The notes under the pieces were generated by a model. The model did no database searches. It had not been told where the DNA came from and saw only the letters and a list, made by a program, of their open reading frames with translations. Positions 57,761 through 63,991 of a stretch of DNA of 64,000 nucleotides are shown here, in pieces (positions within the stretch are counted from its first letter, which is position 1; every line of letters begins with the position of its first letter). The translations under genes were made by a program, and so were the position numbers. Source of the DNA: Variovorax paradoxus (GTDB lineage: Bacteria > Pseudomonadota > Gammaproteobacteria > Burkholderiales > Burkholderiaceae_C); assembly GCF_024734665.1 (NCBI RefSeq), contig NZ_CP102931.1, forward strand, positions 3,408,001-3,472,000, read 5' to 3'.

Positions 57761-60700
57761 TCAGGCCTGCAACTGGGCCCAGGCCTTGTCGAGCCGCTTC
57801 ACGCTCACCGGCTGCGGCGTGCGCAGCTCCTGTGCGAAGAAGCTCACGCGCAACTCTTCGAGCAGCCAGCGGAATTCGAGCATGCGGTCGTCCACCACGC
57901 CCTTGCGCTCGGCCACAAGGCGCCAGTAGCGCTGGTCCTGCGGCTTCAGCTCGGCGAGCTTGGCGGCGTCGCGCGCCGGGTCGGCACGCAGCTTGTCGAG
58001 CCGCAGCACGATCGCCTTGAGGTAGCGCGCGAAATGCTGCAGCTGCGTCCACGGCGCATCGGCGATGAAGCGCTTGCCGACGAGACGCTGCAGTTGCTGC
58101 GCGGCGTCCTGCACGGCGTCGGGCTGGATCTTCGTGTCCTTGATCTTGCGCGCGGCCGCTGCATATTCGACGAGGATGGTCGACGCGAGCCGGGCCACCT
58201 CATTCGCGATGAGCGTGAGGCGGCCGCGGCCCTCCTCCAGCCGGCGCTTGAAGGCGAACTCGTCGGTCGGCAGCGGCTCCTGCAGGAAGGCCCGGTCGAT
58301 CGCCACGTCGATGATCTGCGTGCGCAGCTCCTCGGAGGTGCCCAGCGGCATGTAGGCCACCGACATCTTCTGCAGGTCGGGAATGTTCTTCTCGAGGTAC
58401 TTGAGCGCGTCTTTCAGCTGCAGCGCGAACAGGCGCCGCAGGCCGGCGCGGTGCTTTGCGGCTGCCACGGCGGGCTCGTCGAACACCTCGATGGTCACCG
58501 CATCGCCTTCGTCGCGCAGCGCCGGGAAGCCGATCAGCGATTGCGAGCCGCGGCGCACTTCCATCAGCTCGGGCAGCTCGCCGAAAGTCCAGCCCGTGTA
58601 GCGCTGGCCTGCAGGCAATGCAGCGGGTGCGGTGGCCTGGCTCGCATCCTTTGCAGGCGCCCCTGACTTGCCTTCGGGCGCAGCCGCCGCATTCTTCTCC
58701 GGCGACGCCTTGACGTTGAGCCCCGCCAGCGCCTGGAAAGCACCCCGCGCCTGCGCACCAAGCTCAGCCTTCAGCGCACCGAGGTTGCGCCCCATGCCCA
58801 GCTGCCGGCCGTGCTCATCGATCACGCGCAGGTTCATGAACAGGTGCGGCGGCAGCATGTCGAGCTTGAAGTCCGCGCGCTTGACGTCGATGCTGGTCAT
58901 GTCGCGCACGCGCTTGAGCAGCACGTCAGTCAGCGAGCCTGTGCCGAACAGCTCGGGCACGGACAGTTCTTCCGCCAGCTTCGACGCCGACTCGGGCAGC
59001 GGCACCAGCCGCGATCGCGGGCGCTGCGGCAGGCTCTTGAGCAGCGCCTGGATCTTGTCCTTGAGCATGCCCGTGACCAGCCACTCGCAGCGCTCCTCGC
59101 TCACCTGGTTGAGCACGAACAGCGGCACGCTGACCGTGAGGCCGTCCTTCGCGTCGCCGGGCTCATGCAGGTAGGTCGCGGCGCAATCCACACCGCCGAG
59201 TCGAAGCGTCGGCGGGAACGATTGCGTCGTGATGCCGGCCGCCTGGTGGCGCATCAGTTCGTCACGTGTCAGGAACAGCAGGCGCGGTTGGTCCTTCGAG
59301 GCATGGCGGTACCAGTTCTCGAAGGTGATGCCGCTGGCCACGTCGGCGGGCAGCTGTGCGTCGTAGAAGGCGAAGATCAGCTCGTCGTCGACCAGCACGT
59401 CCTGCCGGCGCGACTTGTGCTCCAGCCCTTCGACCTCGCGCACCAGCTTGCGGTTGGCCTGGAGGAACGGGAACTTGCTCTCCCACTGCCCCGCGACCAG
59501 CGCCTCGCGGATGAAGATCTCGCGCGCCGCGACCGGATCGACCTTGGTGAAGTCGACACGCCGGCCGCTGTAGACAACGAGGCCGTACAGCGTTGCCCGC
59601 TCCAGCGCAGACACCTGCGCGCCCTTTTTCTCCCAGTGCGGATCGAGCAACTGCTTCTTCAGCAGATGCTCAGCCACCTGTTCGAGCCACTGCGGCTCGA
59701 TGTTGGCGATGCCGCGCCCGAAGAGCCGCGTGGTCTCGACCAGTTCGGCCGCGACGATCCAGCGGCCGGGCTTCTTCTTCAGGTGCGCGCCTGGGTGCTT
59801 GTAGAACTTGATGCCGCGCGCGCCGAGGTACGCCTCGTCGTCTTCGAGCTTCCAGCCGACATTGCCCAGCAGGCCTGCGAGCATCGACAGGTGCAGCGGC
59901 TCGTAGCCGGCCGGCTCCGCATTCAGGCGCCACTTGTGCTCGGTAACCACCGTGAGCAGCTGCGAATGGATGTCGCGCCATTCGCGCACGCGGCGGATGT
60001 TGATGAAGTTCTGCCGCAGCAGCTGTTCGTACTGCCGGTTGCTGAGCTTGTGAGTGTCGCCATGGCCGCCGCGCGCGTCGGCGATCCACTTCCACAGCCG
60101 CAGGTAGCCGCTGAACTCGCTCTTCTCGTCGTCGAACTTCGAATGCGCCTGGTCGGCCTGCTGCTGTGCTTCCATCGGGCGATCCCGCACGTCCTGCACG
60201 CTGAGAGCCGACGCGATGATGAGCACCTCTTCGAGCGCGCCACGCGAGCGGGCTTCCAGGATCATGCGGCCCACGCGCGGGTCCAGCGGCAGCCTCGACA
60301 GCTCGGCGCCGGTGTGCGTGAGCTCGTTGGCGTCGTCGACCGCGCCCAGCTCGTTGAGCAACTGGTAGCCGTCGGCAATCGCGCGCGGGGAAGGCGCTTC
60401 CAGGAACGGAAAGCGCGCCACGTCACCGAGGCGCAGTGATTTCATCCGCAGGATCACGCCGGCCAGCGACGAACGCAGGATTTCAGGATCGGTGAAACGC
60501 GGCCGGCCCTCGAAATCCTTCTCGTCGTAGAGCCGGATGCAGATGCCGTTCGCCACACGACCGCAACGGCCCGCGCGCTGGTTGGCCGCAGCCTGGCTGA
60601 TCGGCTCGACCAGCAGCTGTTCGACCTTGCTGCGGAAGCTGTAACGCTTGACGCGTGCCGTGCCGGTGTCGATCACGTAGCGGATGCCCGGCACCGTAAG

Positions 60701-61621
60701 CGAGGTTTCGGCCACGTTGGTGGCCAGCACGATGCGCCGGCCCGTGTGGCCGTCGAAGATGCGGTCCTGCTCGGGGCCCGAGAGCCGCGCGAACAGCGGT
60801 AGCACCTCGGCATTGCGCAGCAGCGGCTGGTGGCTCAGGTGGCGGCGCAGATGGTCGGCCGCCTCGCGGATCTCGCGCTCGCCGGGCAGGAACACGAGGA
60901 TGTCGCCCGCGTTGTGCGGATCGCGCCAGAGTTCGTCGACACCGTCGGCAATGGCGTCGTTCAGGTCATGCTCGCGCGACTCTTCGAAGGGGCGGTAGCG
61001 CTGCTCCACCGGGAAGGTGCGGCCCGACACCATGATGGTCGGCGCCGGTCCCTTGGCCGAGGCGAAATGCTGCGCGAAGCGATCGGCGTCGATGGTGGCC
61101 GAGGTGACGATCACCTTCAGGTCGGGCCGGCGCGGAAGGATCTCGCGCAGGTAGCCCAGCAGGAAATCGATGTTCAGCGAGCGCTCGTGAGCCTCGTCGA
61201 TGATGAGCGTGTCGTAGGCCTTCAGCAGCGGATCGGTCTGCGTTTCGGCCAGCAAGATGCCGTCGGTCATCAGCTTGACCGAGGCGTCCCGGCTCAAGCG
61301 GTCCTGAAAGCGCACCTTGAAGCCGACCACGTCGCCCAGCGGCGTCTTCAGCTCTTCGGCGATGCGCTTGGCCACCGAGCTCGCGGCGATGCGGCGCGGC
61401 TGCGTGTGGCCGATGAGCCGGCCCTTGCCGGGCTCGGCATTGAGCTTGCCGCGGCCCAGCGCGAGCGCGATCTTCGGTAGCTGCGTGGTCTTGCCCGAGC
61501 CCGTCTCGCCGCAAACGATCACAACCTGGTGCGCCGATATGGCGGCCATGATTTCGTCGCGCCTGCCCGAGACAGGGAGCGATTCGGGAAATTCGATGCG
61601 GAGAGGTGTCGTGGTCGTCAA
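57761..61621 (-). CDS. hrpA: ATP-dependent RNA helicase HrpA (DEAH box)
   Basis: The 1286-residue helicase has Walker A GETGSGKTTQLPKIALALGR, motif II LIIDEAHERSL, TSATIDADRF and the motif V/VI set (LATNVAETSLTVPGIRYVID; QRAGRCGRV), then HA2/OB and the DUF3418 C-terminal domain. HrpA resolves stalled ribosome complexes in E. coli. Length is typical (about 1300). The only start before the conserved RIEFPESLPVS is a TTG without a good ribosome-binding site. It diverges from the AAA+/M41 gene over 387 bases. Confidence 0.95.
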   Translation of the reverse strand: MTTTTPLRIEFPESLPVSGRRDEIMAAISAHQVVIVCGETGSGKTTQLPKIALALGRGKLNAEPGKGRLIGHTQPRRIAASSVAKRIAEELKTPLGDVVGFKVRFQDRLSRDASVKLMTDGILLAETQTDPLLKAYDTLIIDEAHERSLNIDFLLGYLREILPRRPDLKVIVTSATIDADRFAQHFASAKGPAPTIMVSGRTFPVEQRYRPFEESREHDLNDAIADGVDELWRDPHNAGDILVFLPGEREIREAADHLRRHLSHQPLLRNAEVLPLFARLSGPEQDRIFDGHTGRRIVLATNVAETSLTVPGIRYVIDTGTARVKRYSFRSKVEQLLVEPISQAAANQRAGRCGRVANGICIRLYDEKDFEGRPRFTDPEILRSSLAGVILRMKSLRLGDVARFPFLEAPSPRAIADGYQLLNELGAVDDANELTHTGAELSRLPLDPRVGRMILEARSRGALEEVLIIASALSVQDVRDRPMEAQQQADQAHSKFDDEKSEFSGYLRLWKWIADARGGHGDTHKLSNRQYEQLLRQNFINIRRVREWRDIHSQLLTVVTEHKWRLNAEPAGYEPLHLSMLAGLLGNVGWKLEDDEAYLGARGIKFYKHPGAHLKKKPGRWIVAAELVETTRLFGRGIANIEPQWLEQVAEHLLKKQLLDPHWEKKGAQVSALERATLYGLVVYSGRRVDFTKVDPVAAREIFIREALVAGQWESKFPFLQANRKLVREVEGLEHKSRRQDVLVDDELIFAFYDAQLPADVASGITFENWYRHASKDQPRLLFLTRDELMRHQAAGITTQSFPPTLRLGGVDCAATYLHEPGDAKDGLTVSVPLFVLNQVSEERCEWLVTGMLKDKIQALLKSLPQRPRSRLVPLPESASKLAEELSVPELFGTGSLTDVLLKRVRDMTSIDVKRADFKLDMLPPHLFMNLRVIDEHGRQLGMGRNLGALKAELGAQARGAFQALAGLNVKASPEKNAAAAPEGKSGAPAKDASQATAPAALPAGQRYTGWTFGELPELMEVRRGSQSLIGFPALRDEGDAVTIEVFDEPAVAAAKHRAGLRRLFALQLKDALKYLEKNIPDLQKMSVAYMPLGTSEELRTQIIDVAIDRAFLQEPLPTDEFAFKRRLEEGRGRLTLIANEVARLASTILVEYAAAARKIKDTKIQPDAVQDAAQQLQRLVGKRFIADAPWTQLQHFARYLKAIVLRLDKLRADPARDAAKLAELKPQDQRYWRLVAERKGVVDDRMLEFRWLLEELRVSFFAQELRTPQPVSVKRLDKAWAQLQA

Positions 61622-62008: not shown

Positions 62009-63991
62009 ATGTCCAAAGACATCCATTCCCGTCTGCACGCCGAGCTCGCAGAGCGCACGCGCCACCTGCAGACCGTTGCCGAAGCCCTGAAGACCGAGCT
62101 CTTCGGCATCGACGACATCATCGACCGCGTGATCGATTCGCTGCGCGCCTGGTATGTGCTGCCGCAGATCATCAGCCGCCCCGTCATCGTCTGCCTCTGG
62201 GGCCTTACCGGCACCGGCAAGACGCAACTGGTGCGCAAGCTCGCGCAGCACCTGGGCTTCTACGACCGCTTCATCGAAGTGCAGATGGACGGCTTCAGCC
62301 ACGGCTCGGGCTATCACAGCCGCGGCTCCATCTCGGCCATGCTGGCCGAATCGGGTATCGCCGAAGGCACGCCAGGCATCCTGGTGCTCGACGAATTCCA
62401 GCGCTTCCGCACGGTCGACGGCAACGGCAATGACGCCAAAGTTGAGCGCTACCAGGACGTGTGGGCGCTGCTGTCAGACGGCCGCCTGCCGCCCGCGCTC
62501 TCGATGCTCGGCGAGATCGAGTCGTCGCTCGCGCATGCCGAGTTCGTGCAGGACCGCGACGGCGCCGACAAGAAGAAGTTCGACAAGAAGCGCAAGCTGC
62601 ACCTGTCGCCCTGGGAGGCGCGCGAAGTGAAGCGCTGCCTGAAGCTCTCCGAGACCCTGCTGCAGATCATGGCGTGGAAGCCCGCCGAGGTGCACGCACG
62701 CCTGCGTGCCTTCCGCGACACGCAGCAGAGCTGGGAGACCGACTACAGCAAGCTGCTGGTGTTCGTCTCGGGCAACCTCGACGAGATGTACGCCGAGACG
62801 GCCCAGCGCGTCGAAGACTGCGACACCGACGCCGACATCTTCCACGCGCTGACGAAGAAGCTCTCCGTCATCGACGTGAAGAAGGCGCTGGCCGAGCGCT
62901 TCCGCCCCGAGCAGATCGCCCGACTGGGCAACAACCACGTGATCTACCCCTCGTTCAACCGCGCGACCTACGTGCGCCTGATCCTGTCGATCTGCGACCG
63001 CTACGTGGCCGAGATCCAGGAAAGCTCCGGCGTGCGCTTCGTGCTCGACGCGAGCGTGTACGAGCAGATCTACGCCAACGCCGTGTTCCCGGCGCAGGGC
63101 ACGCGCCCGCTGTTCTCGTCGATCCACGCGATCCTGAGCGCGACGCTGGTCAATGCCGCGCTGTGGGCGCTGGAGCAACGCGCCGACGGCAGCGAGCCGG
63201 TGTGGCTCACGCTGGACGCGGGCGCCTCGTGCATCACGGCCAAGTACCGAAAGGCGCGCCGCCAGTTTCCGGTCGCGCTGGAGCTGAACCGCCTCAAGCA
63301 GCGCTCGAGCGAGGACTTCCGAGCCCTGCTCGCCGTGCACGAGGCGGGCCACGGCGTGGCCTATGGCCTGCTGTTCGCCCGCGCGCCGCAGGAAATCAAG
63401 ATCAACGTGGCCTCGTTCGAAGGCGGCTACAACAGCTACGAGCAGCGCAAGGCCTGGTCCAAGGAAAACCTGCGCGACCGCATCTGCGTGAGCCTCGCGG
63501 GCCGCGCCGCCGAGCAGCTGGTGTTCGGCGAGCAGGCCTGCACCTCGGGCGCCACGCAAGACTTCATGCAGGCGACCGCCTATGCCGCGCAGTACGTGCG
63601 CCACTTCGCCTTCGGCACGCGCCTGAGTCGCACCGACGTCGCGAACGACCCGGGCGACAACGTCAACACCGACATCGAGGCGACCAACCCCGAGATCGAG
63701 GCCCTGCTGGCGCAGGAACACGCACGCGCGCTGGCGCTGCTCGACGCGCACACGCCTGCGCTGATGGCGGTGGTCGACGCGCTGCTGCGCGAGGGCTCCA
63801 TCGCGCCGGCTGAACTGGCCGCGATGCTCGAGCTGCCGGACCCGGCAGCCGGTGCGGCCACGGACGCCTACGCAGCGCTGCTCGCGAGCTTCCGCGCCCG
63901 CAACGCCGGCCTGCCACCGGCGACGCCGCCCAGGGGCTCCGGAGCGGCCATTCCCGCGAGCGCAGCCCGTGTGCTGCGTGCGATCGCCTGA
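62009..63991 (+). CDS. soluble Clp-like AAA+ ATPase fused to FtsH-type (M41) zinc peptidase
   Basis: The 660-residue protein has an AAA+ domain (about residues 20-400): Walker A GLTGTGKT at 65-72, Walker B ILVLDEF at 124-130, and the late motifs LAERFRPEQIARL (residues 294-306) and GTRPLFSSIHAIL, which match the ClpA/B-D2/ClpX group, not classical FtsH. A basic DKKKFDKKRKL stretch and helix lie at 187-230. The peptidase domain (about 420-600) has VHEAGHGVAYG (His444, Glu445, His448) and the FtsH-like third-ligand motif SGATQDFMQAT (Asp518). There is no membrane helix. This suggests a cytosolic ATP-dependent protease; no substrate is known. Confidence 0.85.
   Translation: MSKDIHSRLHAELAERTRHLQTVAEALKTELFGIDDIIDRVIDSLRAWYVLPQIISRPVIVCLWGLTGTGKTQLVRKLAQHLGFYDRFIEVQMDGFSHGSGYHSRGSISAMLAESGIAEGTPGILVLDEFQRFRTVDGNGNDAKVERYQDVWALLSDGRLPPALSMLGEIESSLAHAEFVQDRDGADKKKFDKKRKLHLSPWEAREVKRCLKLSETLLQIMAWKPAEVHARLRAFRDTQQSWETDYSKLLVFVSGNLDEMYAETAQRVEDCDTDADIFHALTKKLSVIDVKKALAERFRPEQIARLGNNHVIYPSFNRATYVRLILSICDRYVAEIQESSGVRFVLDASVYEQIYANAVFPAQGTRPLFSSIHAILSATLVNAALWALEQRADGSEPVWLTLDAGASCITAKYRKARRQFPVALELNRLKQRSSEDFRALLAVHEAGHGVAYGLLFARAPQEIKINVASFEGGYNSYEQRKAWSKENLRDRICVSLAGRAAEQLVFGEQACTSGATQDFMQATAYAAQYVRHFAFGTRLSRTDVANDPGDNVNTDIEATNPEIEALLAQEHARALALLDAHTPALMAVVDALLREGSIAPAELAAMLELPDPAAGAATDAYAALLASFRARNAGLPPATPPRGSGAAIPASAARVLRAIA

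Follow-up and report, generated by a model that had tools for sequence, protein, structure and literature searches.

The window, a stretch of 64,000 nucleotides of Variovorax paradoxus DNA, contained a forward-strand coding sequence (62009..63991, ATG start) in the list of open reading frames, and Pfam assigned both an AAA domain (residues 61-146, E 1.7e-7) and a Peptidase_M41 domain (residues 434-603, E 3.5e-19), each above the curated cut-off, to its 660-residue product. The AAA+ module, which appears to be of the Clp/Hsp100 D2 type, spanned about residues 15-421 (62051..63271) and was followed by the M41 peptidase domain at residues 433-612 (63305..63844). Divergently oriented beside this gene was a reverse-strand open reading frame (57761..61621) that we take to be hrpA, and a gene recognized as argA begins just past the window. 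Named Variovorax relatives of the protein were near-identical (99%), and close relatives carried the labels "cell division protease FtsH", "AAA family ATPase", and "putative peptidase, M41 family".

The ATPase and zinc-peptidase elements named in the initial annotation (an intact Walker A/B pair, HEAGH, and a third-ligand aspartate) were present in the protein, as were the motifs RFRPEQIARL and TRPLFSSIHAIL. Walker A was GLTGTGKT (residues 65-72, 62201..62224) and Walker B LVLDE (125-129, 62381..62395); they were followed on the same strand by the sensor-1 residue Asn 256 (62774..62776), by Arg 305 in EQIARLGN (62921..62923), a candidate arginine finger by analogy with Clp D2, and by Arg 366 (63104..63106), which alignment places at sensor 2 in GTRPL, the counterpart of GARPL in ClpB D2. 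The zinc motif HEAGH lay at residues 444-448 (63338..63352), and Asp 518 (63560..63562) is the putative third zinc ligand by alignment to FtsH chains. Across 93 family members, selected for suitable length and the absence of stops, residues K71, T72, N256, R297, R305, R366, H444, E445, H448, and D518 were invariant, and D128 and E129 of Walker B were retained in at least 90% of rows. In a 60-row set all of the listed ATPase and zinc residues, D128 and E129 included, were present in 60/60; this set had been pre-filtered on HEAGH and ELFGxD, with 18 of 122 open reading frames skipped, so the count for HEAGH is 60/60 by construction. Among 34 viral rows, D128/E129, N256, R305, and R366 were conserved in every one and the HEAGH residues in 33, the remaining row being gapped at that site.

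Alignment with Clp D2 located a segment of about 80 residues (163-241, 62495..62731, forward strand), lying between Walker B and sensor 1, at the position of the presensor-1 hairpin. Its length was 77-95 residues in the 57 members, out of 60, in which it was measured, and the spacing from Walker B to sensor 1, 127 residues in the window protein, ranged from 124 to 216 in viral members. Basic inserts between the domains had been described earlier; the inserted sequence is mainly this one segment of about 80 residues inside the AAA module, and the basic stretch DKKKFDKKRK belongs to it. The predicted monomer structure, a moderate model (pLDDT 69, pTM 0.48, residues 257-315 below 50), showed the insert as mostly helical.

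The reported absence of a membrane helix held by Kyte-Doolittle hydropathy, the measure on which the transmembrane verdict is based. The highest 19-residue mean in the window protein was 1.56, with none of the N-terminal transmembrane helices of FtsH detected, whereas 28 of 30 M41/FtsH-type proteins that these searches also retrieved reached 2.30-2.99. In the 60 members the maxima had a median of 1.42 and a highest value of 1.88, and seven were at or above 1.6. The protein thus appears to be soluble, without an FtsH-like membrane helix. Two other M41 proteins came up in the searches. One (L108:19-2007) has a GPPGTGKT-type AAA and no hydrophobic helix (maximum 1.13), sits on a very long branch of the M41 tree, and looks like another soluble M41 protease. 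The other (L013:97-2073) comes from a Variovorax genome (G008, contig C2, 839 kb), where it is the second M41 protein; it is divergent and has a likely membrane helix (2.41).

To place the AAA module, profiles were built for the family and for the modules of ClpA/ClpB/ClpV D2, ClpX, HslU, Clp D1, Lon, FtsH, and RuvB. Profile-profile comparison (hhalign) of 73 bacterial and viral rows with ClpB D2 gave a probability of 98.4 over 285 columns in local mode and 99.3 over 292 columns in global mode, compared with 94.1 over 92 columns (local) and 82.0 (global) for the FtsH AAA. The combined AAA profile averaged 43.5 bits for ClpB D2 vs 10.3 for FtsH, and group models run on the 73 members averaged 37.2 (ClpB D2), 25.6 (ClpA D2), and 3.0 bits (FtsH). 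With bacterial members alone, global alignment again separated ClpB D2 (98.1 over 293 columns) from FtsH (32.0), whereas local alignment left them unseparated (FtsH 94.4 over 90 columns at the P-loop, ClpB D2 92.0 over 277 columns). The match to FtsH was therefore limited to the P-loop region, while that to Clp D2 ran over the whole module and took in the FRPE-R and GxRPL motifs. In the maximum-likelihood AAA tree the family grouped with Clp D2 and Lon (96/91), FtsH lying outside this clade, and Lon joined the family at 88/79. At the 0.05 level, AU tests rejected none of three groupings, with Clp D2 alone (p 0.23), with FtsH (p 0.074), or with ClpX/HslU (p 0.076); in the verdict on this module, profiles and motifs weigh more than topology. 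ClpB_D2-small (PF10431) was unmatched in the window protein at E <= 0.01 in the genome scan and at E <= 1 in Pfam, and a pattern-only scan for the ClpP-docking IGF/IGL loop returned a single LGF at residue 82, inside the large domain.

We considered that the protein could be an FtsH that has lost its membrane anchor, its AAA having diverged and its Clp-like motifs being convergent. The M41 half is clearly FtsH-type, by Pfam and by hhalign against the FtsH M41 domain (probability 99.9, E 1.4e-35); the best whole-chain Foldseek matches of the predicted model were FtsH; the AU test retains the FtsH grouping; and L108 offers a precedent for a soluble-looking M41 enzyme. The reach of the AAA match, full-length for Clp D2 and confined to the P-loop for FtsH, together with a score of 59 bits against the cut-off of 600 for the NCBIfam FtsH equivalog TIGR01241, makes such an origin improbable. 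An AAA phylogeny inside FtsH had been named at the outset as a result that would count against a Clp-type assignment; profiles and tree set the family apart, and topology taken alone is indecisive. The earlier proposal of an HCLR/ClpB-D2-like AAA is borne out by the full-length profile match and the motifs, and a Clp/Hsp100 D2-like module, not a classical AAA of the FtsH type, is supported on sequence grounds.

The resulting architecture differs from each known system with which it shares parts. FtsH and the m-AAA and i-AAA proteases (MEROPS M41) likewise join an AAA module to an M41 domain with HEAGH and a third-ligand aspartate in one chain, but the window protein has a Clp-D2-like AAA with the insert and no FtsH-like hydrophobic helix. 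With the D2 modules of ClpA, ClpB, and ClpV (Hsp100, HCLR clade) it shares the full-length AAA match and its two motifs; unlike them, it has a single AAA without D1, an insert at the presensor-1 hairpin, a fused zinc peptidase in place of ClpP, and no PF10431 match. Lon belongs to the same broad clade and likewise combines AAA+ module and protease in one chain, but its peptidase is of the serine type. Apart from the window gene, the host genome has a single M41 gene, which encodes an ordinary FtsH. PF10431 was matched at E <= 0.01 by seven other proteins (six above the cut-off), which we take to be ClpA, ClpB, three ClpV-like proteins, ClpX, and HslU. The three long open reading frames recognized as ClpV-like (G000:C1:4723264, 6128963, and 6629413) suggest up to three type VI secretion loci in this genome. 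A sequence search of the PDB returned no chain matching both the AAA and M41 halves, and a Clp-D2/M41 fusion protease was not found described in the open-access literature searched. Characterized homologues of this architecture, which would have spoken against novelty, were accordingly not encountered in these sources. The idea of a new AAA+/M41 fusion gained support, with the qualification that the fusion is common to the whole family and not recent in Variovorax.

Members of the family occur widely on large viral contigs, many of which reach jumbo-phage size. Two IMG/VR scans returned 43 and 95 relatives, 80 of the 95 being kept, and the matches listed fell on 84 distinct viral contigs, 54 of at least 100 kb and 30 of at least 200 kb. 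The viral set comprised 123 loci and 68 distinct proteins by exact sequence, with HExxH in 67; one member (L272) has HEASH instead of HEAGH and still fits HExxH. No record in INPHARED (50,697 records) covered at least 80% of any of four queries. The terminase family PF03237 was matched in 8 of 33 viral records, seven above the cut-off, so viral identity rests largely on the IMG/VR classing. In PHROG, phrog_4871 ("ATP-dependent protease", E 1.2e-11) matched part of the AAA end and phrog_30773 (E 3.8e-10) part of the M41 portion; neither covered the fusion from end to end in any of the four proteins scanned. Because many relatives lie on long viral contigs, the window protein seems to belong to a kind of ATP-dependent protease that is undescribed and that very large phages share.

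A dnaK gene lay downstream of the protease within 5 kb in 6 of the 68 distinct viral loci (L281, L293, L297, L301, L352, and L383), joined by dnaJ in five of these, an arrangement that forms a phage chaperone-protease cluster. Scanning 77 of the 234 viral neighbour proteins of at least 150 residues identified, among others, Hsp70 (4) and DnaJ (3), and phage-type matches such as NAMPT (2), homing endonucleases, a clamp loader, and a Dda-like helicase.

A quick tree of 73 rows placed the 11 bacterial ones in one tip clade (SH-aLRT 93) among 62 viral rows. The first to join this clade was L262 (100), followed by L264, L266, L267, L268, L317, L332, L333, and L339 (99); L266 is on a 379-kb contig with terminase matches. 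L262 and L263 come from short contigs that are rich in GC and match the small protein weakly (see below); they may be bacterial or prophage. On the 15.6-kb contig of L263, classed as viral, open reading frames that we recognized as tail-like precede the protease (L263:1-6950), and this may be a prophage edge. The Burkholderiales genes, chiefly from Comamonadaceae and relatives, thus form one shallow clade inside viral diversity. The simplest history is one transfer from phage, the direction being read from a midpoint-rooted quick tree, and the family was probably taken up once by the ancestor of the Burkholderiales genes.

In bacteria the gene is accessory. Full-length matches occurred in 2 of 398 genomes of the phylum sample (own genome counted), the other 243 genomes at E <= 1e-12 showing the M41 part only among the matches listed; the order sample returned the same two genomes (2/399 at E <= 1e-40), and the taxonomic-family sample 42/399 at E <= 1e-40 (own genome counted), three of them split or partial and several with a stop in the matched range. 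A scan of named genomes with two family peptide patterns found 115 relatives, of which 80 were kept, some named only as MAGs, from Variovorax (22), Acidovorax and other Comamonadaceae, related Burkholderiales including Pelomonas, Mitsuaria, and Roseateles, and one Cupriavidus. The protease gene lies between hrpA and argA in Variovorax, and among the 80 loci hrpA was nearby in 46 and argA in 45. In all 19 protease-less Variovorax examined, hrpA and argA were adjacent and the slot was empty, with gaps of 67-301 bp in 16 and 795-871 bp in three. Outside Variovorax, the protease occurs with a small gene as a pair in several different neighbourhoods. Such a pattern would also be expected of a chromosomal anti-phage defence gene carried as a mobile two-gene cassette, whose viral versions would then act in counter-defence. 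For the protease, however, PADLOC gave no strong component match, only weak ones to ATPase regions (the best, E 1.2e-5, covering 36 residues in a model of 1019 positions), and we regard a defence role as unlikely.

The gene had been said to stand alone beside hrpA, which is true of the window, but in other genera it is usually preceded by a small gene. An unannotated basic protein of about 80 residues was encoded upstream on the same strand in 52 of the 80 named loci (tblastn E <= 0.01; for example L041:7592-7834), these being 52 of 58 loci outside Variovorax and 0 of 22 within it. The protein has a pI of 11.3-12.0 (31 proteins) and belongs to an undescribed family with the pattern MSAK..SRAF...LRRMKQP...PRNPVA...GKHIR..GAQRRAD. 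No more than 227 nt separated the end of its match from the protease match, except in L035 (about 800 nt), and in L049 the small-protein match covered 50 residues only. Variovorax genomes carry a relative elsewhere, unlinked to the protease, in the host at G000:C1:6239971-6240195 on the reverse strand. Of 399 family-sample genomes, 37 had both genes, 5 the protease only, 7 the small protein only, and 350 neither (Fisher p 1.3e-39, kinship ignored), using a small-protein cut-off of E <= 1e-8 fixed after the list of 88 genomes at E <= 0.01 had been seen. The 40 Variovorax genomes divided into 13, 0, 7, and 20, with three small-protein matches in protease-less genomes (E 2.6e-5 to 7.5e-5) scored as absent; in an argA tree of 30 Variovorax this co-occurrence followed one 17-genome clade with three independent pairs, and it therefore proves little. 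The small protein also occurs in some genomes that lack the protease. In L207 (G1115) a short remnant, 51 residues from the start of the protease at 71% identity, overlaps the small protein, with an open reading frame recognized as transposase-like nearby, a probable loss of the protease. If the protease has an adaptor or regulator, the small basic protein is the leading candidate, but it may also be a substrate or unrelated.

The accessory distribution and the single small basic neighbour would also suit an ATP-driven unfoldase whose M41 half has a structural role or processes a single specific client, with no general degradation. Plant FtsHi motors include M41-derived proteins that are not known to be proteolytic, and the PDB entries 8xqw and 8xks, presumably tied to these motors, were among the PDB matches. 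The invariant zinc and catalytic positions in the 93 bacterial-type rows and the HExxH of 67 of the 68 viral proteins nevertheless argue for selection on peptidase activity, and we consider this alternative unlikely, if worth keeping in mind.

Our preferred reading, to which we assign a probability of about 0.72, is that the window protein is a soluble, hexameric, single-chain Clp-D2/M41 ATP-dependent zinc protease, probably derived from phage. By homology, the hexamer would stack a Clp-D2-type AAA+ ring on an M41 ring. Pore loops powered by ATP would feed unfolded protein through to the M41 chamber, where zinc-dependent hydrolysis would follow. The presensor-1 insert, which would lie on the axial side facing the peptidase, may act as a gate or in substrate selection. 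On large viral contigs the enzyme is sometimes encoded with DnaK and DnaJ, and in Burkholderiales the small basic protein usually encoded before it may serve it as a partner. More speculatively, and with the balance against it, the family could represent a class of AAA+ protease not yet described, in which a soluble motor of the Hsp100-D2 type carries M41 and a variable presensor-1 substrate gate. Huge phages would be its native setting, where together with phage DnaK/DnaJ it would make up a private system for protein quality or host takeover, and Burkholderiales would have domesticated it once, along with the small basic protein as its dedicated adaptor.

Such an enzyme, soluble and driven by a Clp-type motor, would show that M41 can do without the FtsH motor and without membranes, and the fusion would be a natural one-chain experiment on the matching of motor and peptidase rings. 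Database names such as "cell division protease FtsH" conceal this family, and large phages would own a protease, sometimes beside a DnaK/DnaJ of their own.
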